Below are positions 3,596-63,877 of a stretch of 64,000 nt of DNA, piece by piece. The stretch spans positions 124,001 to 188,000 of the IMG/VR virus record IMGVR_UViG_3300030419_004471. The stretch is one strand, 5' to 3'. The position numbers and the translations under genes are program-made. Numbering within the stretch: the first letter of the stretch is position 1; each line of letters starts with the position of its first letter. This DNA comes from a virus. The notes beneath the pieces are model-generated. The model was not told the origin of the DNA. It ran no database searches and saw only the letters and a program-made list of their open reading frames with translations.

Positions 3596-3604
3596 CTATA
3601 AATA
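3596..3604 (-). promoter_or_regulatory. TATTTATAG box, putative late promoter (DUF3008-type gene)
   Basis: TATTTATAG on the coding strand, 15 nt before the ATG, with GGAAGGA between them. No -33 box seen. Confidence 0.6.
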
Positions 3605-3631
3605 TAAAGAATGTGAAGAAAATGTATATAT

Positions 3632-4684
3632 TTAGTTATTTATGCCACCTCTTGAAGAACCTCCAGAACTTCCTCCACTTGATACTCCACCGCTTGAACC
3701 TCGTGATGAACCTCCACTACTAACACCACTTGAACTTCCTCTACTAAAATTATTTGAACTTCCTCTACTGAAAGAATTAGAAGAGTTATTGATATTTGGA
3801 ATGGATGGTCTGGAGTTAATAGTGTTATTCCAATTATTAACTGGTCTACTATTATTGTTATTATTGTTAATAGGAACTACTGGTCTACCATTATTATATC
3901 TAATAACATTATTATTAGGTACATTATTTGGATTATTATAAACTCTAACATCATTAAACCTATCTCTTAATCTATCAACAATATTATCAATAACATTATT
4001 ATTATTGTTATTATTGTTATTTACATTATTTCTTGGTTTGTTATATCTTGTACTGATTAGGTTTTCTATATTACTATTACCATTATCTATAAATCTACTT
4101 CCTCTTCCTCCTCTAACATATGCAATATTTGTATTTTCTCTACTAGAATTCCAAATTACATTGTACCCTGGATTACCCCAAGGCCCATTGTACCAATTGT
4201 TCCATGGTCTGTAAGGTCTGTGCCAATTCCAAGCCCATCCATAATTCCAATTGTTCCATCCCCAATTATTATATCCCCATCCATAATTAAAGAATGGATA
4301 GTTAAATGCCCAATCATTCCAAAATTGATATCTATTCCAATAAACATCAAATGCTGTATATGGTCTCCAATAGCTAAAACTGTAGTTAGATGTGTACCAA
4401 CTATAAGGTTGGTCCATAGCATATTGTGCAAAATCCCATCTGAATCTTGAATCTGTTCTTAGTTTCCATCTTAATTGAGAATAAGATAAGGTATCTATTT
4501 TTACATCACTTGGTACTTCTAATGCTACTTCATGCGGCCCATATAATGGGTCGTGATACATAGTTGATAATTTAAATGATGCACATCCTGTAAATAAATT
4601 TAGTATAATCAATCCAGCTATTACACCAAGTACCTTAGCTATTGCATCAGCGTAACGTGTTGATTTTTTCTCTGATTGTGTCAT
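3632..4684 (-). CDS. Trp/Tyr/Asn-rich low-complexity lipoprotein
   Basis: N-terminal membrane segment ends in a lipobox (NLFTGC, Cys34), followed by a folded-looking region (about 40-85), a block extremely rich in Trp, Tyr and Asn (about 90-180, e.g. WGYNNWGWNNWNYGWAW), poly-Asn tracts (about 215-285) and a Ser/Gly/Arg tail with repeated SRGSSGG units. Asn/Trp-rich lipoproteins of this kind are a familiar uncharacterised class in Flavobacteriia, so it may be host-derived. A textbook AGGAGG Shine-Dalgarno lies 6 nt upstream of the ATG, unusual for this host group and pointing to high expression. The start overlaps the upstream lipoprotein gene by 38 nt. A surface-coating or adhesin role is speculation. 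Confidence 0.75.
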   Translation of the reverse strand: MTQSEKKSTRYADAIAKVLGVIAGLIILNLFTGCASFKLSTMYHDPLYGPHEVALEVPSDVKIDTLSYSQLRWKLRTDSRFRWDFAQYAMDQPYSWYTSNYSFSYWRPYTAFDVYWNRYQFWNDWAFNYPFFNYGWGYNNWGWNNWNYGWAWNWHRPYRPWNNWYNGPWGNPGYNVIWNSSRENTNIAYVRGGRGSRFIDNGNSNIENLISTRYNKPRNNVNNNNNNNNNVIDNIVDRLRDRFNDVRVYNNPNNVPNNNVIRYNNGRPVVPINNNNNNSRPVNNWNNTINSRPSIPNINNSSNSFSRGSSNNFSRGSSSGVSSGGSSRGSSGGVSSGGSSGGSSRGGINN

Positions 4685-4922
4685 TTAGTACCTCCTTTTC
4701 CAATTCGTTAATTCTATTTAAAATTTTTGAAATATCTTCACGAGTAGTTTTTATTGTACTCCTAATCTCTTTCCATTCTTTAATAGTATTTGTTGTATCT
4801 TTATCTATTTCTGATAAACTTACACTTTTCGTAGTATCGTTATTTGTTTGATTCTCTTCTTTAATAACATCACTACAGGACAATCCTAACATTGTTAGTA
4901 GTCCCAGTAAAAAACATTTCAT
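4647..4922 (-). CDS. Small lipoprotein with coiled-coil, spanin-like architecture
   Basis: A 91-aa protein with signal peptide and lipobox (LLTMLGLSC, Cys16), an acidic/Thr-rich spacer and a C-terminal helix with heptad character (ISKILNRINELEKEVL). This architecture is that expected of an outer-membrane spanin subunit, but also of many small lipoproteins. The gene overlaps the next lipoprotein gene by 38 nt, which resembles nested spanin gene pairs, though the downstream protein is itself a lipoprotein and not a typical inner-membrane spanin. Transcription probably starts from the TATTTATAG box at 4939-4947. Confidence 0.65.
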   Translation of the reverse strand: MKCFLLGLLTMLGLSCSDVIKEENQTNNDTTKSVSLSEIDKDTTNTIKEWKEIRSTIKTTREDISKILNRINELEKEVLNDTIREKINTLR

Positions 4923-4938
4923 ATAATCTAATCTTTAC

Positions 4939-4947
4939 CTATAAATA
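4939..4947 (-). promoter_or_regulatory. TATTTATAG box, putative late promoter (small lipoprotein)
   Basis: TATTTATAG, 16 nt before the ATG at 4922. Lies in a 32-nt gap between the HAD gene stop and the lipoprotein start. Confidence 0.6.
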
Positions 4948-4954
4948 TAAGATT

Positions 4955-5485: not shown

Positions 5486-5488
5486 ATA

Positions 5489-5497
5489 CTATAAATA
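5489..5497 (-). promoter_or_regulatory. TATTTATAG box, putative late promoter (HAD gene)
   Basis: TATTTATAG occupies nearly the whole 14-nt gap after the metallopeptidase stop; ATG is 3 nt downstream. Confidence 0.6.
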
Positions 5498-5499
5498 TA

Positions 5500-5889
5500 T
5501 TACATAAATAGTTTGTAATTCTTTTCTTCGTTAACTGCTTCTATTTCATATGGATGAGTAGTATAATCATGTCCATATTTATCATAATATCTTTTAAACC
5601 AAGTAGGTGATTGTAAGTAGTGAACGTATTCGTGGATAAGAGTTTGAATAATCATTTTTCTACTTTTCATCTGAGGATAGTAAACACTAATCTCATTCAA
5701 CATTGAACAATACTCAGCGTGACATTTATCTTCTTCACCTTGAGCACCATCTTCACCACTATATTTTTCGTAGATGTTTTTGTGAAGTTCTATATAAGGA
5801 GTACATTCTTGGAATTTAGAGAACCCATAGTGCTTCTCAATCTTAGGATAAACTTCATCGATGATTTTTAACACTTTATCTTTAGTCAT
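5500..5889 (-). CDS. Zinc metallopeptidase-like protein (HEYVH)
   Basis: A 129-aa protein with a zincin signature HEYVHYLQ near residue 89 and a downstream Glu in HPYEIEAVNEE that could be the third ligand. Small HExxH proteins of this sort are frequent and uncharacterised in T4-type phages. No signal peptide, so cytoplasmic or virion-borne. It has its own promoter of the 17-nt spacer class (5907-5938), which sets it apart from the neighbouring late-type genes. It may process host or phage proteins; the substrate is unknown. Confidence 0.65.
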   Translation of the reverse strand: MTKDKVLKIIDEVYPKIEKHYGFSKFQECTPYIELHKNIYEKYSGEDGAQGEEDKCHAEYCSMLNEISVYYPQMKSRKMIIQTLIHEYVHYLQSPTWFKRYYDKYGHDYTTHPYEIEAVNEEKNYKLFM

Positions 5890-5906
5890 AACAATTATTT
5901 ACATAG

Positions 5907-5938
5907 TAAATATACGAAAAAAAATTGAATTATCCAAG
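5907..5938 (-). promoter_or_regulatory. Promoter, -33/-7 class, for metallopeptidase gene
   Basis: On the coding strand: CTTGGAT (5938-5932), 17-nt spacer, TATATTTA (5914-5907). Matches the Bacteroidota -33 TTG and -7 TAnnTTTG form. Start codon is 16-17 nt downstream. Confidence 0.75.
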
Positions 5939-5957
5939 GATTTTGGTGGATTTTTTA

Positions 5958-6575: not shown

Positions 6576-6579
6576 TCTA

Positions 6580-6855: not shown

Positions 6856-6856
6856 T

Positions 6857-7627: not shown

Positions 7628-8857
7628 TTATCTAAATGTATAGTTTATTCCAAATGTTGAATTAAAGAATTTAGTATCCCACATTTTATTGTATTCACCT
7701 TCAGCAAAAACTCCTAAATTCTTACCTATTTTCCAACCAAAGTTGATACCAAATTGATAATCTTCCCATTGTTCACCTTCTGCATCTTGTACCAATCCAC
7801 CTTTACCCCAATTGTTTCTGTTTAAGTAAGAGAAATCTTCATCTCCTTTAACATATTTGTGATATCCTGGTAGATAGTTTGCGTATCCGTGAAACCAAAA
7901 GTTATTCTTATAATGATAGAAATCAGCTCCTAAGATTGGTGATACAACACCGAATGGGTCTATACTATCCCAAATTTCATTATTATATCTGTTAATAAGG
8001 TCTCTGAATACTGTGTTTCTAAAATCTAAATCTGAATGTGCTACGATATTTCCTTGTTCATCTCTCCAAATCCAATCAAATCTTTCATTACCAGTTTCTA
8101 AATCAGTATAAGTTGTTGCGTGGTCTGTGTATCCATACTCGTATCCTAAAGAGTACCAAGGATTAGCTGGATATTCTTCCCCATCAATTATTTGAATTTC
8201 ATTTAACCAAATTTCAATCGGGTTATATCCATATGCTCTAGTGTGAGTTCTATATATTGCTCCAGCTGATAAACTAAATTTCTTACCAATTGGTAATCTA
8301 GCTCTTACTTCTGCTGATTTATATTCGAAATCAAATGCACCTTGGCTTCTTGATTCTAACTTAACAATATGATTTTTACCTGTGTGTCTAATAAAATACC
8401 TAAAGTTATTCCATTCTTCACCTCTAAGTCTTTCCTTTTCAAAGTGAAATAAATATTCAAATCCTTGAACTGCTGATGTTGGTGCGGATAATGCTTGTTG
8501 ACTTTCTCTGTATTGATTACCTGTCCAGAAGTTACCTGGTTTTCTTTCGTATTGAAATCTTCCTAGTTTACGGATACCTATTCCATATCTGTAATCAAAT
8601 GGATAATATTCTGTTACTTCTATAACTCTTGGTATAGCGTACAAATCTCCATCAGCTGGTCTTTCTACAAAGAAATCTTTTCTTGAGTTTTCATATGCAT
8701 TTCTGATATCACCGGCTGCATAAATTGTTCCGTATTTTAAGAAGTCATTATAGAACTCTTTAAATATATTCTTTTTTACTTTCGTTTCTTCTATTTCTTG
8801 GGCATTAACATTAAATGAAAGTAATAAACTTAACATTAATAATAGTAAATTTCTCAT
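7628..8857 (-). CDS. Outer-membrane beta-barrel protein
   Basis: Signal peptide ending FNVNAQ, then about 390 residues of alternating aromatic/polar beta-strands (for example GIGIRKLGRFQYE, FSLSAGAIYRTHT, NLGVFAEGEYNKMW) and a C-terminal strand FGINYTFR with the terminal aromatic residue expected for Bam-dependent insertion. The phage therefore places a barrel in the host outer membrane. Possible roles are receptor masking, superinfection exclusion or channel formation. A GGGAG Shine-Dalgarno site and an inverted repeat (8879-8912) with a TATTTATAG-like box lie upstream. I do not recognise a named family. Confidence 0.7.
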   Translation of the reverse strand: MRNLLLLMLSLLLSFNVNAQEIEETKVKKNIFKEFYNDFLKYGTIYAAGDIRNAYENSRKDFFVERPADGDLYAIPRVIEVTEYYPFDYRYGIGIRKLGRFQYERKPGNFWTGNQYRESQQALSAPTSAVQGFEYLFHFEKERLRGEEWNNFRYFIRHTGKNHIVKLESRSQGAFDFEYKSAEVRARLPIGKKFSLSAGAIYRTHTRAYGYNPIEIWLNEIQIIDGEEYPANPWYSLGYEYGYTDHATTYTDLETGNERFDWIWRDEQGNIVAHSDLDFRNTVFRDLINRYNNEIWDSIDPFGVVSPILGADFYHYKNNFWFHGYANYLPGYHKYVKGDEDFSYLNRNNWGKGGLVQDAEGEQWEDYQFGINFGWKIGKNLGVFAEGEYNKMWDTKFFNSTFGINYTFR

Positions 8858-8878: not shown

Positions 8879-8912
8879 GGTTATATTTGTATATAAGTAT
8901 TAAAAAATAACC
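8879..8912 (-). repeat. Inverted repeat with 6-bp arms before beta-barrel gene
   Basis: GGTTAT and ATAACC, 22 nt apart, enclosing the TACTTATAT box. The outer TTTGG and inner TATATACAA are like those at 32946-32984. Confidence 0.4.
8891..8899 (-). promoter_or_regulatory. TATTTATAG-like box (beta-barrel gene)
   Basis: TACTTATAT, one variant position (C) and final T, inside the inverted repeat 8879-8912 and 33 nt before the ATG. Confidence 0.4.
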
Positions 8913-9585: not shown

Positions 9586-9594
9586 CTATAAATA
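9586..9594 (-). promoter_or_regulatory. TATTTATAG box, putative late promoter (PAP2 gene)
   Basis: TATTTATAG fills nine of the eleven bases between the stop at 9595 and the ATG at 9583. Confidence 0.6.
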
Positions 9595-9780
9595 TTACTT
9601 TTTAAAGTAATTCCAAATATCTATAGCTTTTGAAGTGATTTTTTCTGTTGCGTTACCAACTTTTTTTGAGATTTGTTTTGCGATTGGAGTAGGTAATACC
9701 TTTTCTAATTTCTTTTTGGCTTTACCCTTTGCGATTAAACCTGCACCTTTTTCGATTATTTTTTCTTTTAGCTTTCCCAC
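9595..9780 (-). CDS. Small basic protein, GTG start
   Basis: A 61-aa, Lys-rich helical protein (GKLKEKIIEKGAGLIAKGKAKKK) with an aromatic end. The start is GTG at 9780; no ATG lies near, and a TATTTATAT box ends 2 nt upstream. No family recognised. Amphipathic and cationic, so a membrane- or nucleic-acid-binding peptide is possible. Confidence 0.55.
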   Translation of the reverse strand: MGKLKEKIIEKGAGLIAKGKAKKKLEKVLPTPIAKQISKKVGNATEKITSKAIDIWNYFKK

Positions 9781-9782
9781 AA

Positions 9783-9791
9783 ATATAAATA
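9783..9791 (-). promoter_or_regulatory. TATTTATAG-like box (61-aa gene)
   Basis: TATTTATAT, 2 nt before the GTG start at 9780. Confidence 0.5.
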
Positions 9792-9802
9792 TACTCAGTA
9801 TA

Positions 9803-25965: not shown

Positions 25966-25994
25966 AATCTCTTTTATTTGTTATATATAAGTAT

Positions 25995-26003
25995 ATATAA
26001 ATA
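25995..26003 (-). promoter_or_regulatory. TATTTATAG-like box (RHH gene and glycan operon)
   Basis: TATTTATAT, 29 nt before the ATG at 25965. It is the only promoter-like element seen before the 16-kb glycan operon. Confidence 0.5.
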
Positions 26004-26022
26004 TAAGAAAATTATAAAAACA

Positions 26023-26880
26023 TTAATTCCAAGCCGAACACAATCCTCTTTCTTTAAACTCACACCAATCACATAATCTAGTTTTGTTTGTAAAGTAATC
26101 TATATCCCTATGCTTACCCTCATCATCAAACACAGTTTCAATGAAATTCATAAACCCATTCCAAGCCTTATTAATGGATGGTTTTCCATTAGCTGGAATG
26201 TGAGATGATATACGAGGAATAGGAAAATCATAATTCTCATTTATTTTTCTTTTAAGAATCTGAAACTCTACGTGAACTTTATTTAGAGGTAAATTATACT
26301 TCTCTGCGTAAATCTTTTTGTACAATAAAATTTGTGCGTTTTTTATTGGGTCTCGCTTTTGGTATTTATTCCAACCTCTTGTTGATGTTTTTAAGTCTAT
26401 AATAGTAATTGAGTTATCATATAAATTCCTTATAACAACATCAATAAAACCAAGAAAATTTATATTTGGTTTTACTTTAGCGTTTAAGGGTAGCTCAATA
26501 GCTTCTAACTTTTGATTCTTTTTAGAATACCATTTAGCTAATTTTGTTTTAAAAAACTTTAGTATCTGCCTACCATCCCCAAAAAACTCTTCCAATTCAA
26601 TTTGAGTACAGGGTAATCTATCACCTTGCTTTTCTTTTTCTTTCTTAAACTCTTCAACCAATTTATCTTTTAGTAATAAATCCAAGTCTATTTCCATAGC
26701 TTGTTTCTTTGTTACATTGTACATCACATCCAAAAAATGTTGGATGGTTTCGTGCATAGCCGTACCAAAGATTGTGTGAATGTTACCAGAACTTTCACCT
26801 AATTTATCAATATAGTTTAGTTTGAATTGTTGTGGACATGAACTCCACATATTATATTGTGAGAAAGACACTCTAGCCAT
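26023..26880 (-). CDS. PD-(D/E)XK nuclease, RecB/Cas4-like
   Basis: A 285-aa RecB-type nuclease. N-terminal SFSQYNMWSSCPQQFKLNYID carries the first Cys/Tyr motif, FGTAMHETIQHFL contains the His, GFIDVVIRNL the Asp, IIDLKTSTRGW the DxK catalytic pair, and the end CDWCEFKERGLC holds three Cys, as in the Fe-S or zinc-binding Cas4/AddB-like proteins. Likely processes DNA ends during recombination or replication. Has its own 17-nt spacer promoter (26897-26928). Confidence 0.75.
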   Translation of the reverse strand: MARVSFSQYNMWSSCPQQFKLNYIDKLGESSGNIHTIFGTAMHETIQHFLDVMYNVTKKQAMEIDLDLLLKDKLVEEFKKEKEKQGDRLPCTQIELEEFFGDGRQILKFFKTKLAKWYSKKNQKLEAIELPLNAKVKPNINFLGFIDVVIRNLYDNSITIIDLKTSTRGWNKYQKRDPIKNAQILLYKKIYAEKYNLPLNKVHVEFQILKRKINENYDFPIPRISSHIPANGKPSINKAWNGFMNFIETVFDDEGKHRDIDYFTNKTRLCDWCEFKERGLCSAWN

Positions 26881-26896
26881 ATACTAATTTGTTATA

Positions 26897-26928
26897 TAAA
26901 TATACAAAAAATTCCTGAGAAATCCAAA
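26897..26928 (-). promoter_or_regulatory. Promoter, -33/-7 class, for RecB-like nuclease
   Basis: TTTGGAT, 17-nt spacer, TATATTTA on the coding strand. The spacer is nearly the same as in the gp45 promoter (38006-38037), sharing TTCTCAGGAATTTTT. ATG 16 nt downstream. Confidence 0.8.
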
Positions 26929-33011: not shown

Positions 33012-34373
33012 CTAAAAGTTCATACTCTCCACATATTTCTTATGTAATAATTGCTTCCTTTCTATGTTTCCACTAGCGGATTCTTTAGTAGAAAGTATCC
33101 CTTCGGCTGAAGTTCCTTCGTAAACTTCTATGAATCCTGTATTAGTATCCATCTTACAAGGGAATGTTATTCCATCAGGTCCGAATCTGTTTTTCATAAT
33201 GTGAGCTCTTGCAGTATTATTCAATTTATCTTTTGATTTTCTACTCCAACTCATAATGAAATCAGCATTCATAACTTTTGCATAAGAGTCTGAAATTTTA
33301 TCTGCTTCTATAACTTCTGAATCAATTGCTGAACGATTAGTTTGAGATGCTGTCCATATTGGAATACCATATTCACCACTTAATCCTCTTAAGTCAATAT
33401 AAACACCACCTTGCTCAGCGTATGTTGAATCAGTTTTATTTGAATGTGATAGTAACAAATCTGCATAATCGATTAAGATTAAATCAGGTTTATTATCTGT
33501 TGCTATCATTTTATCTATGTGTTGTGCAATCTTCTTTGAAGATACACCTTTAGGTGGGAAATATTTAATTAATAATCTTCCCTGCAATCCTTTAATTTTT
33601 TCTTTTACTTTTTCTTTATTTTCTTTAATATCAGCTGATGGTATTTTAGAAAATACAGTATCATATCTTTGTCCTACATAATGTTCTGATAATTCTAATG
33701 AATAATGAACTACACTTAATCCTTGTTTTACTGCTGATGCTCCTAATGTAGTTAGTATCCAAGTTTTACCAACACCAGATGGTGCAACTACAACTCCCAA
33801 TTCACCTGGTCCTAATCCACCATCCATTAAATCATTCACTGGTTTCCAATCGGTTGGTACGGTATCTCTTTTTACATCATCTATACGAGAATCAAAATCA
33901 TCTTTATAGTCATGTCCTAAATCAGTCTCAATACCTACTTTCATAGCTTTATCAACCAAATCTTTTATCCTATTGTAATTACCAGCTTTTAATAAATCAA
34001 CTGATGTTAATATTACCTGTTTAAGATTTTGATTTCTACAAAACGAAGTAAACTCTTTTTTAATATAATCTAAATCTACATTACCAACTTGAGTATAAAC
34101 ATGTCTAAGTTGTTCTTTAACTGTAGTTTTTAAAATTTCATTATCTAATTTAGAAACTTTTACTTTGAAAACATCCATAGTAGGAGGTTTTCTAAACTCT
34201 TCATTATAATCTATGATTTCACCAATAATCCATTTATTAGCTTCTGATTCAAAAAACTTTGGTGATACTACTTCTGAAAGTTTATCTAAGAATTTACCAT
34301 CTGTAAGTAATGCTGAAACTACTTTAGATTGGAATGAATTTCCATATTTTGATAAATTATCTATCTCTTGCAT
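33012..34373 (-). CDS. Replicative DNA helicase, DnaB/gp41-like
   Basis: A 453-aa RecA-fold helicase. The N-terminal domain (1-150) resembles the DnaB N-domain; the motor has Walker A at 198-204 (PSGVGKT), Walker B PDLILIDYADLL, and the H3/H4 region IWTASQTNRSA. It abuts the gp62-like gene (1-nt overlap). Equivalent to T4 gp41, it unwinds the lagging-strand template. No separate primase or gp59 was seen in this window. Confidence 0.88.
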   Translation of the reverse strand: MQEIDNLSKYGNSFQSKVVSALLTDGKFLDKLSEVVSPKFFESEANKWIIGEIIDYNEEFRKPPTMDVFKVKVSKLDNEILKTTVKEQLRHVYTQVGNVDLDYIKKEFTSFCRNQNLKQVILTSVDLLKAGNYNRIKDLVDKAMKVGIETDLGHDYKDDFDSRIDDVKRDTVPTDWKPVNDLMDGGLGPGELGVVVAPSGVGKTWILTTLGASAVKQGLSVVHYSLELSEHYVGQRYDTVFSKIPSADIKENKEKVKEKIKGLQGRLLIKYFPPKGVSSKKIAQHIDKMIATDNKPDLILIDYADLLLSHSNKTDSTYAEQGGVYIDLRGLSGEYGIPIWTASQTNRSAIDSEVIEADKISDSYAKVMNADFIMSWSRKSKDKLNNTARAHIMKNRFGPDGITFPCKMDTNTGFIEVYEGTSAEGILSTKESASGNIERKQLLHKKYVESMNF

Positions 34374-34822
34374 TAAACTTTTAGTTTAAGTTTTGTTATT
34401 TGTTTCTTCTCTGTTCCGTATTTTTCGCAGATATATTTAATGTGTTCTCTGCCTTCTCTAGTAGAATAAAGTATTTCTAAATATTCATTTGCTTCTTTTT
34501 TTGAACATTCATAATCTACACAAACCAAATCTACTAACCAATCCTCATACTTTTGTGATTTTTTCCCCTTTACATATCTAAGATAATGCCTCCCCTTTGG
34601 TATGATACCAATGTATGCTAAATATAATGCTTTCGGAGGAAGAGCTTGTGTATATGGTTGTAGTTCCGCTATTAAATCAATCCAATCTGGATTCATTGAA
34701 AGAAACCTATGAATCATATAATTTGACCAACTCTTCAAATCTTCGTCCTCTAACTTATCGAAATATTTAGGGTCTTGATATTGTGTTATCGCTTTTATGT
34801 GGTCAAATAATCCTTTAGCCAT
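34373..34822 (-). CDS. Clamp-loader small subunit, gp62-like
   Basis: A 149-aa protein with SWSNYMIHRFLSMNP and IPKGRHYLRYVKGKK, the same sequence elements that occur in gp62 proteins (an NRxLS-like start and a lysine/Gly-rich strand). Location next to the clamp loader and helicase genes, and the short size, match T4 gp62, which binds gp44 to form the clamp loader. Sequence similarity is weak, so the assignment leans on position. Confidence 0.6.
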   Translation of the reverse strand: MAKGLFDHIKAITQYQDPKYFDKLEDEDLKSWSNYMIHRFLSMNPDWIDLIAELQPYTQALPPKALYLAYIGIIPKGRHYLRYVKGKKSQKYEDWLVDLVCVDYECSKKEANEYLEILYSTREGREHIKYICEKYGTEKKQITKLKLKV

Positions 34823-35106: not shown

Positions 35107-36057
35107 TTATTTGTTTATCGTTGATAAAATGTTTAGTATCGTAGCCATAAAGGGTATTTCCTTATCGACTGCTAAAGCATCTCTATGTTGACCTTCTGCT
35201 AATACCAAAATTACTCCACTAACCTTACCTGAAGCATATTCATCTACCTTTTCATAGAGTACTGAATACATTTCTGTAAAATCTTGCATTTTAGAATCCG
35301 CAACCATCTGCCTTATTTTCATATATTTATTCCTACTATCATCTGATGATTTAAGAATATCTAATATTTTAGTTTTGAAATCAGAATCCATCAAATCATT
35401 TTTAGAAAGTTTTAACTCACCCTTAACAGAATTAAGTTGACAAGTATTTATTACTTTTCTTATATCAGGATATGATGAATCTATGATAGGAACTAAATCC
35501 TTTACATCATATTTTATTTCTTCGGAACTAAGTATCTTATCTAATTGTACTGCAACTTCTTTTTTAGAAGGTGGTACAATTTGGAATGTTTGACATCTAC
35601 TTTGAATTGGGTCAATTATCTTCTCAACATAATTACAGGTCAAAATAAACCTACAATGTTTTGAAAATGTTTCCATAAGATTTCTTAATATAGCTTGTGC
35701 ATTTGGAGTCATATAATCAAACTCATCCAATATAACAATCTTATATTTCTTAAATCCTTGTGATGATGCAAAGTTCTTAACTTTATTTCTAACTGTATCT
35801 ACATTGTTTTCATCAGATGCATTTATAATCATATAATCACATTCAATTGATTTAACAATGAGTTTAGCCAAAGTTGTTTTACCAGTACCAGCTTTACCAA
35901 AAAGTAAAAGGTGTGGAACATCTGATGTTTCCAAATATCCTGCAACCTTTTCCTTTAGATGTTCATTACCAACATAATCATCTAATTTTACGGGTCTATA
36001 TTTCTCTACCCATAATGAATTATCTATTGTTTCTTCTGTTTGTTCGAAAAATCCCAT
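35107..36057 (-). CDS. Clamp loader large subunit, gp44/RFC-like
   Basis: A 316-aa AAA+ ATPase: Walker A FGKAGTGKTTL (about 54-64), Walker B VILDEFD, sensor-1 LTCNYVEK and the SRCQTF motif. It matches T4 gp44 and loads the clamp encoded at 37279-37974. The gene abuts its neighbours by 1-2 nt and stands in the T4-type order (clamp, loader, small subunit). Confidence 0.92.
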   Translation of the reverse strand: MGFFEQTEETIDNSLWVEKYRPVKLDDYVGNEHLKEKVAGYLETSDVPHLLLFGKAGTGKTTLAKLIVKSIECDYMIINASDENNVDTVRNKVKNFASSQGFKKYKIVILDEFDYMTPNAQAILRNLMETFSKHCRFILTCNYVEKIIDPIQSRCQTFQIVPPSKKEVAVQLDKILSSEEIKYDVKDLVPIIDSSYPDIRKVINTCQLNSVKGELKLSKNDLMDSDFKTKILDILKSSDDSRNKYMKIRQMVADSKMQDFTEMYSVLYEKVDEYASGKVSGVILVLAEGQHRDALAVDKEIPFMATILNILSTINK

Positions 36058-36058: not shown

Positions 36059-37279
36059 TTATCTTCCTACTTCTTTTAAATAATTGTTTTTCATTGTTTC
36101 CCAATCCATACCAATAGCATCTATATAAAATAAATGTTCTGGTTTCAATCGATTAGAATCATATAACTTTGTATATCTTTTTATGGCTTGTCTTTTCCAC
36201 CACTTATTAATGTAATCAACTCCCTCTTCAAACTTCTTTTTCATCTTTAAATCTTTTTCTTCAATTTCTGAACGAAGAAATTCTGGTCCGTTTTCATACA
36301 TCATAGCAAGATACACTCCTCTTTTGAATCCGTGATGGTAATCAGCTGCTCTGATACCACATTCTTTAAAGATTCTTCCTAAAATCTTTTGTTTAATACC
36401 ACTAACAGGTCCTTGTCGTTGAGATTCAGCTCCATACATATTAGCTCCGTTTCTTTTTCTTTCTTCTGTAATATGTTCTTTATACCAATCCTCTCTGTTT
36501 TCTTTTAACCATTGGTGCCACGGGTCATAAAATTTATCATCAGGTTTAATTGCTATCTTACCAGCAGATTCCCCTAATGTTTTAAAATGTGGAATACCAT
36601 TATATTGAGAATGAATACCATATAAAGAAGTTGTACCAACACCAATTAGAGTTTGTCCATATTTCTTTTTCCAAAAATCTCTAATTTCAGGTACAGTAGT
36701 CATCATCGCTGTAAGTTTACCACCTAAGAAATTATATCCTAATGGTTGTGTACATACTATCGTAGAAGCGATTGTTGTATAATTTAACTTACCCTTTTTA
36801 AACTTATCTTCTTTATTCCATCCTATGTATTTATCTCTAACACCCATCGATGTAACATCAGATGCTAAAGATATCATACCCAGCAATTTACCACTTTTCT
36901 TATCCTTAACAAAAACTTTAACATTTCTACCAGGGTTAGCTGTCCAACTCATTGTATGAATCATCTTTCTAAGATGTGTCCATTTTGTAGCTTCTTTAGT
37001 ATCTTCTACAATTTCAACGTATGGTTCTAACTCTTCAATTTCTTTTATTGTAAGTTCTTTATCATTAATATCTGTAGGTCTCCATTGCCAATCATAATAA
37101 GATGCTATAGCAGATTTATCTCTAATCATAGAATCTCCTTGCAACTCTACCCACTTTTTATATAAAGTTTGTTCCTCTACAGACATCTGCATAAGATAGT
37201 CCATATTCTCAATGAGCTTTTTCTTCTCATCTTCGAATACAAATTGAGGTTTAGCTGGTTCGGTATCCCAAAAACTCAT
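36059..37279 (-). CDS. DruA-like (DUF4338) protein
   Basis: A 406-aa protein whose middle (about 100-240) matches the DUF4338 domain: LGMISLASDV, Arg148-Asp-Lys-Tyr-Ile-Gly-Trp154, VCTQPLGYNFLGGKL and YNGIPHFKTLGESAG. DUF4338 is the DruA component of the Druantia anti-phage defence system and its core is thought to have a GNAT-like fold. It lies between the clamp and clamp-loader genes with a 1-nt spacing, a place where it would be co-expressed with replication. Function in a phage is unknown; DNA modification is an attractive guess given the two Mom-like genes. Confidence 0.65.
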   Translation of the reverse strand: MSFWDTEPAKPQFVFEDEKKKLIENMDYLMQMSVEEQTLYKKWVELQGDSMIRDKSAIASYYDWQWRPTDINDKELTIKEIEELEPYVEIVEDTKEATKWTHLRKMIHTMSWTANPGRNVKVFVKDKKSGKLLGMISLASDVTSMGVRDKYIGWNKEDKFKKGKLNYTTIASTIVCTQPLGYNFLGGKLTAMMTTVPEIRDFWKKKYGQTLIGVGTTSLYGIHSQYNGIPHFKTLGESAGKIAIKPDDKFYDPWHQWLKENREDWYKEHITEERKRNGANMYGAESQRQGPVSGIKQKILGRIFKECGIRAADYHHGFKRGVYLAMMYENGPEFLRSEIEEKDLKMKKKFEEGVDYINKWWKRQAIKRYTKLYDSNRLKPEHLFYIDAIGMDWETMKNNYLKEVGR

Positions 37280-37974
37280 TACTTAATCTCTACTAAATAA
37301 TAATTTGATGTATAATCTCCGTCCTCAAATGAAAGATGTGCTAATCCTTTAGATGAAATTTTTAATGAAGATGATTTTGAACCTTTGTTAGCTATAAGAA
37401 TAGCTTTTAGATATTTAGCTGAAAATGCTATAGGTTTTATATCATTATCACATTTACAATTAACATCAATACTAATTCTATTTGAATTAATTGATGAATA
37501 ACCTAAAATGATTTCACCTTTGTTTTTTGTACAAGTAAAAGTAAATGTATCTGCATCTGCTAATGCTCCTTTTGATTTGATAAATTTATTTACAAACTCA
37601 TCATCTAATGTTACCTCAGAATCAAATTCAGGTAATGCCTTTAAATCAGGTACAGCAGGTATAACAGATGGAGCAGCTAGCATATATTGTACTTTCGTAC
37701 CCTTATCACTAAATTTAAGAGCTCCTGTTACCTCTTCTACTTTTATTGATGAATCTAATACACTTAACAATCCTCTCAATTGAGAAGTTGTATAAATACC
37801 AAATTCACCACTAGGAAACTCACTATCTTTCACAGATACGTTTCCTAATAATGTCTTATCATCAGAAATCATTCTGACTGACATTGAATCATCAGTAGAG
37901 TTCATCATTACTGATTCAACCTCGCCACCGAGATTATATCGATTTATGAACCCATCTAATTTTAATTTTTCCAT
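37279..37974 (-). CDS. Sliding clamp, gp45-like
   Basis: A 231-aa protein with the fold and size of a T4 gp45 clamp (228 aa): repeated beta motifs, SMSVRMISDDKTLLGNV, and KYLKAILIANKGSKSSSLKIS near the end. It precedes the DruA-like and loader genes and has a strong promoter at 38006-38037 plus an AGGA site. Confers processivity on PolB. Confidence 0.85.
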   Translation of the reverse strand: MEKLKLDGFINRYNLGGEVESVMMNSTDDSMSVRMISDDKTLLGNVSVKDSEFPSGEFGIYTTSQLRGLLSVLDSSIKVEEVTGALKFSDKGTKVQYMLAAPSVIPAVPDLKALPEFDSEVTLDDEFVNKFIKSKGALADADTFTFTCTKNKGEIILGYSSINSNRISIDVNCKCDNDIKPIAFSAKYLKAILIANKGSKSSSLKISSKGLAHLSFEDGDYTSNYYLVEIK

Positions 37975-38005
37975 AATTATCCTTTTATTAATTTATTTAT
38001 TGTTA

Positions 38006-38037
38006 CAAATATACGAAAAATTCCTGAGAAATCCAAA
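38006..38037 (-). promoter_or_regulatory. Promoter, -33/-7 class, for sliding clamp
   Basis: TTTGGAT, 17-nt spacer, TATATTTG, a perfect -7 box. About 31 nt leader with an AGGA site before the clamp ATG. Confidence 0.85.
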
Positions 38038-41362: not shown

Positions 41363-41371
41363 ATATAAATA
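41363..41371 (-). promoter_or_regulatory. TATTTATAG-like box (gp32-like gene)
   Basis: TATTTATAT, 78 nt before the ATG. A TTTTTGGAA stretch lies just upstream of it, closer than in the -33/-7 class, so the element is ambiguous. Confidence 0.4.
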
Positions 41372-41415
41372 TAACAAACTTCCAAAAACCACCGATATTT
41401 TTAGAGTTTTTTTAA

Positions 41416-41812: not shown

Positions 41813-44326
41813 TTAAAATGAAAAAAACTTTTCAGCTGTTTTTGTTGAGGATAAAACCTCACCCCATTTCATAGCCCCATAAAAATCCTCTAACTTCTTT
41901 AAAAGTTCTCTTTCAAAGATTTTATCATAATCAATATAGGTCTTTACTAAATCCATAATTTCCTTTGGGTCATCATATCCTTTGAATGCTACTCCATCTA
42001 ATCCCATTGGATTTTGTTTAAGATACACCCATTTAACCTTATCACCATTTTTCATAGGTTCATATTTCATCTCACATTTAAAATGAGATAATAGTTGATT
42101 AAATGCTATAGCTGCTTTTACGTGAGCTGGTGTGCCTGATACAAATTGGAACATTCTGATTTGTTTACCCTTTGGAAGATATTTTGTTAAATTCTTTACA
42201 GATGTATTTTTTGCAATATCTACAACATTCATCTGAGATAAATTATTTTTGAAATCATAAATCTTATCAGTAAGTTCAGTTTCCGTTTTACCTTTTAGAA
42301 TATCAATTAGAACTTCACTCATAAACTTTCTAAATGCCGCTGGATAAGATGACCTAACAACATCTAAGCCCTTTACATCTAATTTATTAACAGATACACC
42401 ATTATCAGATATAATCCATTGTGCGTATCGTTTTTTAGCTATCCAAATACCTGATTTAGAAACATATTCTTTTTTAATCTCAAATCTATGTTTATCAATA
42501 TTGAAAATTCTTTTTGCAAGTATATCATAAAAATCATTTAGATAATCTTGCATTTCTCCTGCTATTCCATTTACGAAACCAGCGATATCATCATCAGAAT
42601 TATCTCTCCAAGTTGGGTTTCTACTATCAAGTAAGGGAGTAGCACTAAAAAAAACGGAATCAGTGTCAATGTATATATTACTATCCAAATCGGGATTACC
42701 CAATTCTTTATTGTACCTGATGTTAGCCATGTCAGCAGTTGACTTAATAACTGTCTGTCCTGTCGTGGTAACAGCGGTAGCATTATCAACATCATAAAAC
42801 CTAAAGGCAGGAAGGCCAAGCACCCCATATAAAGAATTAAGTAGAATTTTTTGTACCAATTGACGTTTTTTATACCATTCATATTTTTCATTATCTCCGC
42901 TTTTTCCATATTGTTTCATTTTATTTTTGAACTCAACTCTTTGATTAAACCAAATATCTAAGATATCAGGTATACAACCAACAGTATCAGTTCTATATAA
43001 TACACCATTAGATGCAACTGAAAATTTTGAATTATCTAAATACTTTTTAAGATTTTCTTTTGTAATCGTATCTTCACCGATTGTATAAGTATCCTTACCA
43101 CCCTTTACAAACTCATTCGCATCCCAATCATTAATCTTACCAATCTTAGTTTCTGGTGAGATATTAATACTCATAATAATAGATGGATATAGAGAAGTTA
43201 AATCTAAATCATAAATCCATTCATATTTTCCAACGATAGGTGCTTTTACATATGCTCCGATAAACTTCTCCTCATTGTTATCTCTTAATGCTTGCATTCT
43301 CTCCTGTCTATCAGCTGGTTTATTTGGTGCTACGATACCTTTTCTTTTCAAATAACATAACAATGCTCCTTCTAAGTATTTTGATGAATAAACAAAATCT
43401 TCGTATGGAACGTGACCTGCATGACAAATACCTCTTGCCGTATCGATGAATTGTAACTTCTTATCCATATCAACTACCAACTCAACATCCACTAAGTTAT
43501 ACTCAATAAACTTCTCTATATCATCTCTAAATAATTGGTCTAAGTTTCCTTGATATTCTACCTTACCTCTACCTAACTCTTTTGATGCAATACTATCTAA
43601 ACGATAATTGTCTAATTCTGTATAAGTAAAGTTTTTGTAAAGTGCTAAATAATCTAAATAAGATACACCAGCCATAAAGAATCTCTTACGATAAGGTGAC
43701 CAGAAACATTCACCGATTGGTGATAATCTATTTGCGTTTCTTTTACCTATAACATTTTTTATTCTATTATAAAGATATGGTGTATCAAAGTAATCTATAT
43801 TCCATCCAGTAACAATAGTTGGATTAATATATTCATATAGTTCTAAATATTTTTCTAATAATTCTGCTTCACTTCTAAATGGTAGTACAATAGCTTTATC
43901 AGTTTTCTTATTTGATAAAACATTATCTTTATCTAAAACCAAAACATAATATTGATTGGTAGCTGAATCATGCAATGCTATAGAAGTAATTTCATTCTTA
44001 GCTTCTTGCATATCAGGTAAACCTGTTTCCATCTCTACCTCAATATCATATGTAAGAGTTATATGCCCTTCTGATGGTAAATCCGAATCAGTATATGTAT
44101 CTACTAAAACTCTAGTCGTTTCTGCAACATCTGATTCAAAAAGATTAGGATTATCTTTATTGAATTTATATATCTTAGTTAACCTATCTCCATACAAAGA
44201 TACACACTCACCATTTTCTGCTTTTTCATATGCATATCTTGTATAAGGGAAAGTTCTGTAACCTAATTTATCATCCCATAAGTGTATGAGATTCTTCTGT
44301 CTTTGGTAATATACGTTTTGGTACAT
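41813..44326 (-). CDS. Family B DNA polymerase, gp43-like
   Basis: An 837-aa replicative polymerase with proofreading. Exo I Asp94/Glu96 (YDIEVE), exo II Asn177-Ile-Asp (GWNIDYFD), exo III YNLVD at 276-280; motif A DLDLTSLYPSII with Asp373/Asp375; motif B KILLNSLYG; motif C YIDTDSVFF. Length is near T4 gp43 (898). Its start overlaps the stop of the glycosyltransferase gene upstream. Confidence 0.95.
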   Translation of the reverse strand: MYQNVYYQRQKNLIHLWDDKLGYRTFPYTRYAYEKAENGECVSLYGDRLTKIYKFNKDNPNLFESDVAETTRVLVDTYTDSDLPSEGHITLTYDIEVEMETGLPDMQEAKNEITSIALHDSATNQYYVLVLDKDNVLSNKKTDKAIVLPFRSEAELLEKYLELYEYINPTIVTGWNIDYFDTPYLYNRIKNVIGKRNANRLSPIGECFWSPYRKRFFMAGVSYLDYLALYKNFTYTELDNYRLDSIASKELGRGKVEYQGNLDQLFRDDIEKFIEYNLVDVELVVDMDKKLQFIDTARGICHAGHVPYEDFVYSSKYLEGALLCYLKRKGIVAPNKPADRQERMQALRDNNEEKFIGAYVKAPIVGKYEWIYDLDLTSLYPSIIMSINISPETKIGKINDWDANEFVKGGKDTYTIGEDTITKENLKKYLDNSKFSVASNGVLYRTDTVGCIPDILDIWFNQRVEFKNKMKQYGKSGDNEKYEWYKKRQLVQKILLNSLYGVLGLPAFRFYDVDNATAVTTTGQTVIKSTADMANIRYNKELGNPDLDSNIYIDTDSVFFSATPLLDSRNPTWRDNSDDDIAGFVNGIAGEMQDYLNDFYDILAKRIFNIDKHRFEIKKEYVSKSGIWIAKKRYAQWIISDNGVSVNKLDVKGLDVVRSSYPAAFRKFMSEVLIDILKGKTETELTDKIYDFKNNLSQMNVVDIAKNTSVKNLTKYLPKGKQIRMFQFVSGTPAHVKAAIAFNQLLSHFKCEMKYEPMKNGDKVKWVYLKQNPMGLDGVAFKGYDDPKEIMDLVKTYIDYDKIFERELLKKLEDFYGAMKWGEVLSSTKTAEKFFSF

Positions 44327-46469: not shown

Positions 46470-46478
46470 CTATAAGTA
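46470..46478 (-). promoter_or_regulatory. TATTTATAG-like box (131-aa gene)
   Basis: TACTTATAG; the next bases GTGTATAAAAAT match the leader of the 63836 gene (TTGTATAAAAAT). It overlaps the left arm of the 46478-46498 inverted repeat by one base. Confidence 0.5.
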
Positions 46479-46498
46479 TTAATCGCAAAAAGATTAAT
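46478..46498 (-). repeat. Inverted repeat, 7-bp arms
   Basis: ATTAATC and GATTAAT separated by 7 nt, just downstream of the 674-aa gene stop. No T-run follows, so it is not a classic terminator; it may be an operator or processing site next to the 46470 box. Confidence 0.4.
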
Positions 46499-48525: not shown

Positions 48526-48534
48526 CTATAAATA
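48526..48534 (-). promoter_or_regulatory. TATTTATAG box, putative late promoter (674-aa gene)
   Basis: TATTTATAG followed at once by GTGGTG, so the second GTG (48522) is 3 nt downstream. Confidence 0.6.
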
Positions 48535-48537
48535 TCC

Positions 48538-49194: not shown

Positions 49195-49214
49195 TCTAAT
49201 ATATAAATATTAGA
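49195..49214 (-). repeat. Perfect 8-bp palindrome with 4-nt loop
   Basis: TCTAATAT, TTAT, ATATTAGA on the coding strand, in the gap before the exported nuclease. It contains the TATTTATAT box at 49201-49209. Possible operator or stem-loop. Confidence 0.55.
49201..49209 (-). promoter_or_regulatory. TATTTATAG-like box (exported nuclease)
   Basis: TATTTATAT in the palindrome 49195-49214, 30 nt before the ATG at 49170. Confidence 0.45.
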
Positions 49215-59756: not shown

Positions 59757-59765
59757 TTATAAATA
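59757..59765 (-). promoter_or_regulatory. TATTTATAG-like box (LysM-like gene)
   Basis: TATTTATAA directly after the stop of the upstream baseplate gene and 5 nt before the ATG. Confidence 0.5.
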
Positions 59766-61460
59766 TTATCCACTTGTATTATATGTTAAAGGTGTAAACC
59801 CATATAAATTTTCTCTTCTTTCAGTATTTCTTCTTTGTTCTAAAAACTTCATTGTTATTGAAACTTCTACTAAATGTGGTAATTTGTATCCTTTTTCTAC
59901 TGTTGGTACATTTTTTACACCAGCTTTTTCAAAAAATGCAGCACTTGATTCATATTCTTTAACTTGTTCTGTAGTTCCATCTAACTGCCAATTAGAATTA
60001 TCAGGAACAGTATATTGTAATGATTCAATAAAAGCTTCTCTCTTTTTATATAAATCACCTAAAGTAAAATATAAAAGTGGTGCTCTTACTGAACCAATTG
60101 AAGATTGATAACCTGATTTAATATCTGGATTACCTAATGGATATGTTAAAGATGTTAAAAATCCAATCTTACTCCAATTATTAAGTAATTCTTTTGAATT
60201 CATTGGATATATTGTAAAATTAAAAGTAACACTTCTTTCTACACCATCATATGTGTAAAAATTAAATGGGTTACCACTAAATTTAGCTCCTGCCCAAGAT
60301 GGAGATACCGTTTCTGAAAGTCCTGTAATAGTTCCTCTGAAGTTTACAGTTTCATCAGTAACAACACTTTGAAATTTTAATGGTACAAAATCCCAGTCAT
60401 CTATTGATTTATTATTAATTTTTAAATCTTCTGAAGTATAGATTCCAGTTTGATTTATTGCATCATCTGTGTTTGTAAATCCTTTATCAGAAATTAATTT
60501 GTTTCCTAACTCATCCTTCTCAGTACTGAATTTATTTTCTTCATTAAACTTTACTGAATCAACATTTGTTTTTATATTAACACCTTCTGCTCCATCTTTT
60601 GTTACTTGTTTACCAAGAGCGTCTTTCCCAGTAACTTGTACATATCCTTTTCCAACTCTTAAAGCAGCTAATTGGGCTTCAGGTGTTTCGTATTTGATGT
60701 AAGTACTACTTTTTTCATCTATATTTAATTTATTTTCTAATGCTTTTTCTGAATATGTAGTACCTGTTACACTTTCAAAAATACCAGGTGATGGTTTTGT
60801 CTCTTTTTCCTTATATGGTTCTTTTTTACCAAATCTACTTTTTAAATTATTTTTAAAACTACTATCATTAAATAATGTATCTCTAAGTGTATCCTTTGCT
60901 TCTTTTAGTAATTTACCAGCTGCTTGTTGAGCAATTGTCTTTGGAGTTCCACCACTTAATAGTCCACCAATAAAACTTCCTTGTGCACCTCTTTTTATTT
61001 TTATTAGTCTTTCTTCATAACCTGATTGAACACCAAGCGTTGGGTCATTTAGTGTACCACCACGACCAAATTTATCACTAGCTTTTGTTACTGCATCATT
61101 AGCAAGTTTTGCTAATCCTTTTAATTCATCACCATCACCACCACCAGCTTTTTTTGTATATGAACTTGGTATAAGAGTTTGAGGTACACCTAATGTAGAG
61201 TTAACTACAGTTCTTAGATTTTTTATCGTACCACCAATTAAACCACCATCACCTTCATCGGTACGCATCTTATCCATATCAGGTGTTGAACGAAGAGCTA
61301 TACGAGTAGCTTCGTTGCCATATATTAATGGATTGTTAAGTTCTACTGCAGATTTTACTCTAACACCAGTAAGTTCTTGCTCAACACCAGTCAATCTATC
61401 TGGTTTTACTTGTTTATCTAATCCTGCTCCCCTAAATAATTCTAATATTGTTCTTCCCAT
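59766..61460 (-). CDS. Baseplate/tail-tube junction protein
   Basis: A 564-aa protein whose C-terminal half (VTFNFTIYPMNSKELL, APLLYFTLGDLYKKRE, LPHLVEVSITMKFLEQR) is like tail-tube-cap or baseplate-junction proteins (gp48/gp54 type). The N-terminal part holds short helical segments and linkers. It lies directly downstream of the tape-measure gene (sharing 1 nt) which is where tube-cap proteins lie. Confidence 0.55.
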   Translation of the reverse strand: MGRTILELFRGAGLDKQVKPDRLTGVEQELTGVRVKSAVELNNPLIYGNEATRIALRSTPDMDKMRTDEGDGGLIGGTIKNLRTVVNSTLGVPQTLIPSSYTKKAGGGDGDELKGLAKLANDAVTKASDKFGRGGTLNDPTLGVQSGYEERLIKIKRGAQGSFIGGLLSGGTPKTIAQQAAGKLLKEAKDTLRDTLFNDSSFKNNLKSRFGKKEPYKEKETKPSPGIFESVTGTTYSEKALENKLNIDEKSSTYIKYETPEAQLAALRVGKGYVQVTGKDALGKQVTKDGAEGVNIKTNVDSVKFNEENKFSTEKDELGNKLISDKGFTNTDDAINQTGIYTSEDLKINNKSIDDWDFVPLKFQSVVTDETVNFRGTITGLSETVSPSWAGAKFSGNPFNFYTYDGVERSVTFNFTIYPMNSKELLNNWSKIGFLTSLTYPLGNPDIKSGYQSSIGSVRAPLLYFTLGDLYKKREAFIESLQYTVPDNSNWQLDGTTEQVKEYESSAAFFEKAGVKNVPTVEKGYKLPHLVEVSITMKFLEQRRNTERRENLYGFTPLTYNTSG

Positions 61461-63562
61461 TATTCTCGTTCTCCGTAATTGTTAGATTGGCTTCTTGATA
61501 CTACTTTAGAAACCCCGTCTGTAACTTTTTTACCATCCATATTTACAACAACCTGTAAATTTCTAATATCTTCACCTAAAGTATTTATAGCTGCTACTAC
61601 TGCTCTATTATCTCCACCACCTCCACCTCTATTACCAAATAAACCACCAAATAAACCTGGAGCTGCTACTAAATCATCATTATCCGATAATTGGAACAAT
61701 CCTCCTTCTTTAGTAGATACTTGTGTTTTACCATCAGCAGGAGATGCCATATCACCAGCTTCACCATATAGTTTACTAAATCCAGTTCCTATAATAGCGG
61801 CTGCTGTAGCAGCACCCAAAATCGGTCCTACTATTGGTATCCAAGCTAATGCACCATATGCTGCATATGCAGCCATTAATATCATAGCTGCTGCCACCAA
61901 TTTTATCATTCCCGCAAAAGGGCCTAAAGCATCTGCCCATCCTCTAATATAGTCTGCAACAGTTCCAACCATAGTAATCATCGAAGTAAAAAAACCTACT
62001 ATACCACTAACAACCCACATTACTCCTTCTAAAGCTGGCATAACACCTTCCATTATTGGTGCAAATGCCAATACTAATTGAGTACCTATTTCTGAAAATG
62101 AGTTCGCTACATTATCTAATACTGATTGCATTTCTTTTTGGTCTTTAATTTTTTGTGTTTGATTTGCTAAATCAGTTTTTGAAATATTATTTAAATCTTT
62201 ACCAGAAGCGATAAGTGCATCATAAGCAGCTTGTTGGTCTGCATTCATTTTACCAAACTTTTGCCTTACATTAAGTTGATTTTGTATTTCACTAAACTCC
62301 ATACCAGCAGCTTCAGCTAATTTCTGCTTTTGGAAGTAATTTAAATTATCTAAATCAATTGTACCTTGTATTTGGTCTAATACTGCTTGTTGTGATTTAA
62401 CTATATCACCAGTAGCTGCTAATTCTCTAGCTCTGTTAAAATTAACTGATTGTCCTAACATAGCAGATGCTTCTAATTCAGCGTTAATACTATTATTAAA
62501 ATCTAATAATCCTTCTGCTACTTTAGATGCCTGACCTATTGATGTTCCTAATCTTGCTGCTTGAACTGCTGCTTTGGTTAAATCTTGTACTGAACCTGAG
62601 AAATGCATTGCTGCTGCTTCTGAGTTTTCAGCTATATCTTTTATTACTTTTGATGGAGCTACTCCAGCAGCTGCAGCTAATTGTGTAGTAAATTCAACTT
62701 GATATTGTGCAGCTTCGGCAGATAATCCTCCTAATTGTTGGAATATAGAATTTAATTTTGCTCCATCTGCAGCTGCTACTCCGAAGTTCTTTTCCAATGC
62801 AACTGTACTTTCTAATACTTCTTTTGATGGTTTTCCTATTCCTTCAAATTCATTAATAAATGCTGCAGCTGCCTTACCCACATCTTCCATTGATGCACCT
62901 AAACCTGCCGTACCTTTTGTTACTGCAGCTATATCACCTTTTAATCCTTTAGTTTGGGAGTTTAATAAACCTGTTTCTTCTCTAACTGCCTTTGCAGCTC
63001 CTTCTAATTTTTGAAACCCAACAAAAGCTAATGCTAATGCCGCGAGTAATCCCATAGCAATAAACATAGGTCCTAATTTTGCAAGCATACCTGACATTGA
63101 TTTTAATGAAGCAGTTCCTCCTGCTACACCAGCTCGAAAAGATTTGAAGAATCCAGCCCCTCCTTTTTGTGCAGCTTGAAATGATGATGTAAATCTACTA
63201 CTGAATCTATGTGCAGCTACATCAAATACTCTACCTGCTTTTGCTGCAAATGGGTCAAATACTTTTCCTAATGATGTACCAATTACTGGAACATCTTTTA
63301 CCATATCGCCTATTTTTTCTAATCCAGCTTTGAATCCTTCTGCTGTTTCTTTTGCTTTTTTATTTACAGATGTTAATACTGCATTTTGTTGTTTAGTTGC
63401 TTTAAGAGCTGCTCTAAGGGCTTTAGCTTTTTCTATTTGATTTTTCTTAACGGCACCACTAGTTTTTTCTATAATTTTCTCACTTGCTAAAATTTCAGCA
63501 TTAAGTGAAGAAATCTGTTTTAAGTTTTCTATTTGCCCTATGTAGTCTTGTTCTCTTGCCAT
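61460..63562 (-). CDS. Tail tape measure protein
   Basis: A 700-aa protein with a helical coiled-coil N-terminus (QKLISSLNAEILASEK-type), Ala/Gly-rich low-complexity helices and hydrophobic segments (MFIAMGLLAALALAFVGF near 170; WVVSGIVGFFTSMITMV near 530; IKLVAAAMILMAAYAAYGAL near 560). These are the features of tape measure proteins that set tail length and enter the membrane. Length would correspond to a tail of about 100 nm by the usual rule of thumb. Confidence 0.82.
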   Translation of the reverse strand: MAREQDYIGQIENLKQISSLNAEILASEKIIEKTSGAVKKNQIEKAKALRAALKATKQQNAVLTSVNKKAKETAEGFKAGLEKIGDMVKDVPVIGTSLGKVFDPFAAKAGRVFDVAAHRFSSRFTSSFQAAQKGGAGFFKSFRAGVAGGTASLKSMSGMLAKLGPMFIAMGLLAALALAFVGFQKLEGAAKAVREETGLLNSQTKGLKGDIAAVTKGTAGLGASMEDVGKAAAAFINEFEGIGKPSKEVLESTVALEKNFGVAAADGAKLNSIFQQLGGLSAEAAQYQVEFTTQLAAAAGVAPSKVIKDIAENSEAAAMHFSGSVQDLTKAAVQAARLGTSIGQASKVAEGLLDFNNSINAELEASAMLGQSVNFNRARELAATGDIVKSQQAVLDQIQGTIDLDNLNYFQKQKLAEAAGMEFSEIQNQLNVRQKFGKMNADQQAAYDALIASGKDLNNISKTDLANQTQKIKDQKEMQSVLDNVANSFSEIGTQLVLAFAPIMEGVMPALEGVMWVVSGIVGFFTSMITMVGTVADYIRGWADALGPFAGMIKLVAAAMILMAAYAAYGALAWIPIVGPILGAATAAAIIGTGFSKLYGEAGDMASPADGKTQVSTKEGGLFQLSDNDDLVAAPGLFGGLFGNRGGGGGDNRAVVAAINTLGEDIRNLQVVVNMDGKKVTDGVSKVVSRSQSNNYGERE

Positions 63563-63575
63563 AGTTAGCTATTAC

Positions 63576-63836
63576 TTATTTTATTCCAAATTGTTTCATA
63601 GCTTTTGCTAACGCTGGAGATGGTTTTAAACCTTTGGCTTTCATCTTAGCGGTTGCTTTTTTTAAATCATCTAAAGCTTTATCACCATCTGCTAAAGCTT
63701 GTTGAAGTGATTTATCTTTAGCCAATACTTTTTGAATTTTTCTTTTGAAAAAATTAACTAAAAATCCTTCTCTTTTTAGATTGTGTTTTTTAACAATATT
63801 AGAGAATAGTATCTTATCGTTTTCGTTTATTTTCAT
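63576..63836 (-). CDS. Small tail-region protein (86 aa)
   Basis: An 86-aa helical Lys-rich protein (MKINENDKILFSNIVKKHN, ... ATAKMKAKGLKPSPALAKAM). It lies directly upstream of tape measure with an AAAGGAG Shine-Dalgarno and a TATTTATAG box. Could be a small tail chaperone or adaptor, but no family is recognised. Confidence 0.65.
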   Translation of the reverse strand: MKINENDKILFSNIVKKHNLKREGFLVNFFKRKIQKVLAKDKSLQQALADGDKALDDLKKATAKMKAKGLKPSPALAKAMKQFGIK

Positions 63837-63868
63837 AGTTTTTCTCCTTTGTGGGTATTTTTATACAA

Positions 63869-63877
63869 CTATAAATA
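63869..63877 (-). promoter_or_regulatory. TATTTATAG box, putative late promoter (tail genes)
   Basis: TATTTATAG just downstream of the terminator at 63884-63913 and 32 nt before the ATG at 63836; a TTGTATAAAAAT leader and AAAGGAG follow. Confidence 0.65.

Follow-up and report, generated by a model that had tools for sequence, protein, structure and literature searches.

A ATATTTATA box as a probable late promoter in a clade of Far-T4 phages, with a diverged sigma-like protein as its candidate reader

Introduction

What switches on the late genes of Far-T4 phages? This question is posed by a 64,000-nucleotide (nt) stretch of the virus record IMGVR_UViG_3300030419_004471 (bases 124001-188000 of 213,601; hereafter the window), in which an initial annotation had noticed a nine-base box, ATATTTATA (core TATTTATA), just upstream of 13 gene starts. 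Computational analysis of the whole genome and its relatives points to this box as, with good probability, the late promoter of the phage and of a Far-T4/Immutovirus-like clade with Flavobacterium-type hosts, read by a diverged phage sigma factor. A Far-T4 genome survey did not detect the T4 core genes for transcription regulation and noted that transcription patterns might differ (PMC4360716), and a 2026 study found Far-T4 phages actively produced in seawater, with Flavobacteriales as the largest predicted host group (PMC13037479). In the open-access literature searched, neither this box nor any Far-T4 late promoter was found described.

The genome carries a T4-like gene set that includes DNA polymerase gp43, helicase gp41, ribonucleotide reductase, UvsX, gp45, gp44, gp62, major head protein gp23, portal gp20 and terminase gp17. 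Comparison of gp23 gave 52% identity with Microcystis phage Mel-JY01 (PP395634), 48% with Flavobacterium phage vB_FspM_immuto (Immutovirus; hereafter immuto), 37% over full length with the Far-T4 isolate Rhodothermus phage RM378, and 35% with T4 over 234 residues only. Since gp23 is closer to the RM378 type than to T4, we place the phage in the Far-T4 group.

Enrichment, orientation and conservation of the box

The whole genome contains 44 coding-direction copies of TATTTATA, and 35 of these fall within the ~5% of the DNA that is intergenic, compared to a mean of 3.6 and a maximum of 11 in 500 dinucleotide shuffles. A single copy of its reverse complement, TATAAATA, was counted in these intergenic gaps. 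The sequence TATTTATAG was found 8 times in the window against 2.8 expected; genome-wide, 14 of its 16 occurrences are in coding orientation, and all 14 are intergenic (0.7 expected). A position weight matrix converged on ATATTTATA with T or G as the next base, and has 41 sites in the genome. The genome-wide count proposed in the initial annotation has thus borne out enrichment, orientation and position upstream of starts.

The same pattern extends to relatives, where strand bias of the box (33:2, 1:30 and 0:20) follows the genes, so that orientation relative to genes is kept whichever way the contig is written. In the capsid-region gaps of relatives, ATATTTATA was counted 198 times versus 2 for the host-type box described below, while DNA-polymerase-region gaps hold 18 versus 87 (Fisher P 3e-55 between the regions). 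None of the other orders of these nine bases, 126 in all, is as common as ATATTTATA (198 versus a median of 5), and the box is retained in loci of 38-46% GC. An artefact of base composition is ruled out by the shuffles, the permutations, the reverse complement and these loci of 38-46% GC. Two other controls add little: reading the box backwards is uninformative since ATATTTATA reads identically backwards, and the T4 late region is weakly informative, with TATAAATA before 10 genes and TATTTATA before 6, the latter probably divergent late promoters that read as each other's complement.

Every one of the 13 sites in the window was recovered, on the minus (coding) strand and 1-79 nt upstream of mechanically called starts; 11 read ATATTTATA and two read ATACTTATA. 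The ATACTTATA sites are at 8892..8900 (34 nt before the start at 8857) and 46471..46479 (27 nt before 46443). Boxes at 3597..3605, 4940..4948 and 63870..63878 lie 16, 17 and 33 nt before the starts at 3580, 4922 and 63836, and the box at 25996..26004, 30 nt before 25965, has a second copy, ATACTTATA, at 25986-25994. Others precede genes with recognizable products: a polynucleotide-kinase-like gene (5490..5498, 4 nt before 5485), a gp32-like single-strand DNA-binding protein (41364..41372, 79 nt before 41284), a nuclease (49202..49210, 31 nt before 49170) and a member of the baseplate wedge subunit family (59758..59766, 6 nt before 59751). Three stand very close to their starts, at 9587..9595 (3 nt before 9583), 9784..9792 (3 nt before a GTG at 9780) and 48527..48535 (1 nt before a GTG at 48525). 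The leaders of 63836 and 46443 have TTATAG(T/G)TGTATAAAAAT in common and none of the 13 sites has a -33 box, both as first described.

In immuto, which was isolated on Flavobacterium, the box precedes the annotated terminase, tail sheath, tail tube and baseplate hub genes, and in Mel-JY01 it lies near portal-, sheath- and tube-region genes. Together with the portal gene and the capsid-region gaps, these place the box before virion and packaging genes, as in T4. Many boxes precede genes without an assigned function.

A candidate late sigma factor

The initial annotation had considered a gp55-like late sigma with a different or flipped preference, or an unrelated element, and had proposed looking for a gp55/gp33 homologue elsewhere in the genome. 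The PHROG gp55 profiles phrog_234 and phrog_12791 found no match in this genome. When a home-made profile of 11 gp55 proteins was used, the open reading frame (ORF) at genome positions 64691-65422, outside the window, ranked first in the genome (E 0.006). It encodes a 243-amino acid (aa) protein whose region 2 was aligned with gp55 by hhalign at E 0.002 to 0.02 and a probability of 2-13%.

Two AlphaFold2 models of this protein had a pLDDT (predicted local distance difference test score) of 72 and 76, with values of mostly 77-91 over region 2 in one of them. Foldseek comparison to the PDB returned almost exclusively sigma factors, with sigma-E region 2 superimposed at a root-mean-square deviation of 2-3 A; probabilities for sigma-E region 2 and gp55 (7d7c) were 0.82-0.97, gp55 itself scoring 0.93. 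Among viral models, the best match (E 1.6e-4) was an unnamed protein of 264 aa, as long as RM378 p020, and a sigma-like factor of Klebsiella phage KPV15 was also among the matches. These models suggest that the 243-aa protein folds like a sigma factor with a gp55-like region 2. What stands of the earlier suggestion is a late-type box without a -33 element and a very diverged gp55-like candidate; a flipped preference is not supported. Because no gp55 profile match was significant, we would describe the candidate as one that works like gp55 and not as gp55.

The candidate is strongly conserved in the clade. It is present once per genome in G002, G006, G026 and G031, the largest relatives, and in Mel-JY01, and has homologues in immuto (gp118) and, more distantly, in RM378 (p020, E 4e-11). 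A host-type promoter precedes the operon that contains its gene. This operon also has a small ORF of ~85-90 aa (MVIEILLGVSVVANG...) that had not been called, on the minus strand at about 65424-65690 of the genome, between the ORF at 65691-66269 and the sigma gene.

An LDFL(F/Y) motif closes both gp43 and gp55 of T4. Some members of the clade have aromatic C-termini, KFFSF on the polymerase and either a terminal DEFFSY or a near-terminal EFW on the sigma; the F is invariant in 38 sequences. For that subclade the aromatic tail may tether the sigma to the sliding clamp. A universal clamp-binding sigma tail was rejected, the tail being found in part of the clade only, and the tether is offered as a hypothesis for the subclade and not as a general property.

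Several observations count against a late promoter read by this sigma. Sequence similarity between the candidate and gp55 is weak, Pfam scans of it gave chance matches only and no sigma domain, PDB sequence searches likewise gave chance matches only, and the Foldseek E-values against the PDB were above 0.01. No sigma match was found in three box-bearing, possibly fragmentary contigs, G003 (147.9 kilobases, kb), G009 (117.6 kb) and G029 (105.3 kb). With respect to the clamp, immuto has box and sigma, and neither a gp45 nor a gp43 match nor an aromatic sigma tail, and Mel-JY01 has a clamp-like gene and a sigma without the tail. Boxes also precede some genes that are not classical late genes, such as those for the gp32-like protein and the nuclease. 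Together with the polynucleotide-kinase-like gene, these show that the downstream genes are not all virion genes. T4 gene 32 has late transcripts too.

The box could be a real late promoter read by another phage protein, leaving the 243-aa protein to serve another step. Such an arrangement would fit the contigs that lack a sigma match, and the link between box and sigma comes from co-occurrence and fold. We consider it unlikely, as the 243-aa protein is the genome's best candidate for a gp55-like region 2 and the largest box-bearing relatives have a homologue.

Two promoter classes

A second class of upstream element in this genome has the form TTGG-(17-20)-TATATT(T/A). Bacteroidota housekeeping promoters have a -33 TTTG and a -7 TAnnTTTG, and the phage's host-type class fits this pattern. 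By gene, 41 have the late box, 19 the host-type promoter and 2 both. Host-type promoters precede the sliding clamp gene (TTGG...CGTATATTTG at 38003..38036, minus strand) and the starts at 5889, 41760, 45972, 52825, 54170 and 55134.

The late box has TA followed by a T run, like the promoters of Bacteroidota and of the phage's own host-type class, and this resemblance raises the possibility of a minor host promoter class, in which the Bacteroidota housekeeping sigma would read TATATTTA as a -7 box without a -33 and no phage sigma would be needed. A TA..TTT pattern is found in the late box as well as in the host-type -7 box TATATTTG, and one hybrid site at 26895..26903 (minus strand), before the start of a 285-aa gene at 26880, combines TATATTTATA with an upstream host-type -33 TTGG. 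This explanation appears improbable, because the two classes are nearly exclusive in the genome (both in 2 of 58 genes), across the clade they are divided between gene regions, and a conserved phage sigma-like protein is present. The late class differs from housekeeping promoters in standing before other genes without -33 TTTG or TTGG, and no strongly conserved -35/-33 element was found in 238 pooled, dereplicated boxes.

The pooled boxes do show a weak, unexplained base bias 17-18 nt upstream, ~-30 from the predicted start, where A is depleted and G/C raised.

Start sites, spacing and terminators

Within the pooled set, a purine follows the box at 4 nt in 214 of 238 cases (P 4e-26 against a 59% baseline), and at +4 or +5 in 237 of 238. 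Distances from box to start codon were collected for 324 sites and are bimodal, with 26 at 3-4 nt, 12 at 5-12 nt and nearly all others at 13 nt or more. The purine and the bimodal spacing therefore argue for an RNA start 4-5 nt after the box, giving a message with no leader or with a usable one. Boxes 3-4 nt from the start codon probably produce leaderless mRNA, as predicted for those before 5485, 9583 and 9780. A terminator-like hairpin with a T run lies within 60 nt upstream of 54 of the 238 boxes, compared to 0.1 in shuffles, although 26 of these hairpins read as terminators in the other direction too. Taken together, the purine signal, the upstream terminators and the downstream genes indicate that the box faces the coding direction. 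It would act as a lone -10-type element with transcription starting at the purine.

The short distances to start codons, sometimes 1-6 nt, are also what might be expected if the box worked in the 5' leader as an RNA signal (UAUUUAUA) for processing, stability or translation. This is very unlikely, since a purine at +4, upstream hairpins and boxes placed either right at the start codon or well clear of it all fit transcription initiation, and an RNA signal needs none of them.

Relation to the T4 late promoter

The initial annotation had described the box as the reverse complement of the T4 late promoter core, and on the plus strand these sites do have the sequence TATAAATA. The relation is a consequence of the near-palindromic core TATNNATA, and a flipped T4 promoter is rejected: TATTTATA is TATAAATA in the same orientation with its central AA changed to TT. 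On its sequence, the box is a variant of the T4-type late promoter that falls outside the T4 consensus by two central bases. A plus-facing T4 late promoter driving antisense or divergent transcripts from TATAAATA can be set aside, as ORF calling assigned 204,828 of 213,601 bases to minus-strand coding sequence versus 1,926 to the plus strand (small scattered ORFs), which leaves nothing for plus-direction transcripts to express, and orientation to genes is conserved in relatives written in either direction.

The gp55 open-complex structure has pockets that take up the bases at -12, -9 and -8 (PMC7892883). Under the T4 numbering, A-12 and A-8 would be retained and -9 would change from A to T; the register of this comparison is uncertain, as the start seems 1-2 nt nearer the box.

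The likeness to T4 otherwise includes a single eight-base -10-like box before virion genes without a -35 element, a diverged sigma with region 2, encoded homologues of gp43, gp45, gp44 and gp62, and aromatic tails on the polymerase and, in part of the clade only, on the sigma. The two systems differ in the predicted start (4-5 nt after the box versus about 6 in T4), and in the sigma, which is longer in this clade (243 aa), has a predicted helical C-terminal half at the position of region 4 and is not detected by gp55 profiles. In immuto, box and sigma are present and no clamp was detected.

A model for late transcription in the clade

The sequences show the enrichment, orientation and regional split of the box, its purine and spacing signals, and the conservation of the sigma-like protein; that this protein reads the box, the late timing and the clamp link are inferred. 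Early and middle genes, including the clamp gene and the sigma operon, would use host-type TTGG / TATATTTG promoters. The phage sigma would then direct host RNA polymerase to ATATTTATA and turn on virion, packaging and some DNA-metabolism genes, much as gp55 does in T4. With the sigma gene itself behind a host-type promoter, a simple cascade would follow, from host sigma to phage sigma and clamp to late genes.

More broadly, the clade is a large, little-studied group of T4-like phages of Flavobacterium-type bacteria, in which the box looks like the "on" switch of late genes. Tentatively, and with rather less confidence than for the promoter itself, we propose that this abundant clade of Flavobacteriales phages has its own late sigma family, with a region 2 and a region-4-like half, that would read ATATTTATA with a clamp or with none and produce some late mRNAs leaderless from the AUG. 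If true, T4-type late transcription would exist in a second form in which the clamp is optional, and the clade offers a natural comparison of such transcription with and without a sliding clamp. The gene timing of Far-T4 phages becomes testable with a probable late promoter, a candidate sigma for it and the cultured phage immuto.

Relatives and neighboring genes

Immuto has a sigma of the same family as this phage and likewise carries the box upstream of its terminase, sheath, tube and hub genes; it differs in that family A DNA polymerases are annotated and gp43 and gp45 are without a match. RM378 has the sigma homologue p020 and a frequent box before genes, which in this phage is TTATTTAA instead of ATATTTATA and has a putative role; it precedes 20 of 83 starts, compared to 9 for its reverse complement. 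The sequence of this box suggests drift within the group; it stands before ~1/4 of RM378 gene starts and may be a diverged version of the ATATTTATA promoter. The polymerase, gp23, sigma and box of Mel-JY01 all group with Flavobacterium-type phages, and its host label deserves a check.

The clamp and replication genes of the window are all on the minus strand. They comprise a gp45-like sliding clamp at 37279..37974 (phrog_223, E 4e-13), a gp44-like clamp loader large subunit at 35107..36057 (phmmer with T4 gp44, E 4e-34), a gp62-like small subunit at 34373..34822 (phmmer with T4 gp62, E 2e-4, and position) and a gp43-like DNA polymerase at 41813..44326, whose C-terminus, KTAEKFFSF, is similar to the DEFFSY sigma tail of relatives. 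In-frame stop codons (one TAG, one TAA) were reported inside the otherwise conserved G020 sigma and G026 polymerase.

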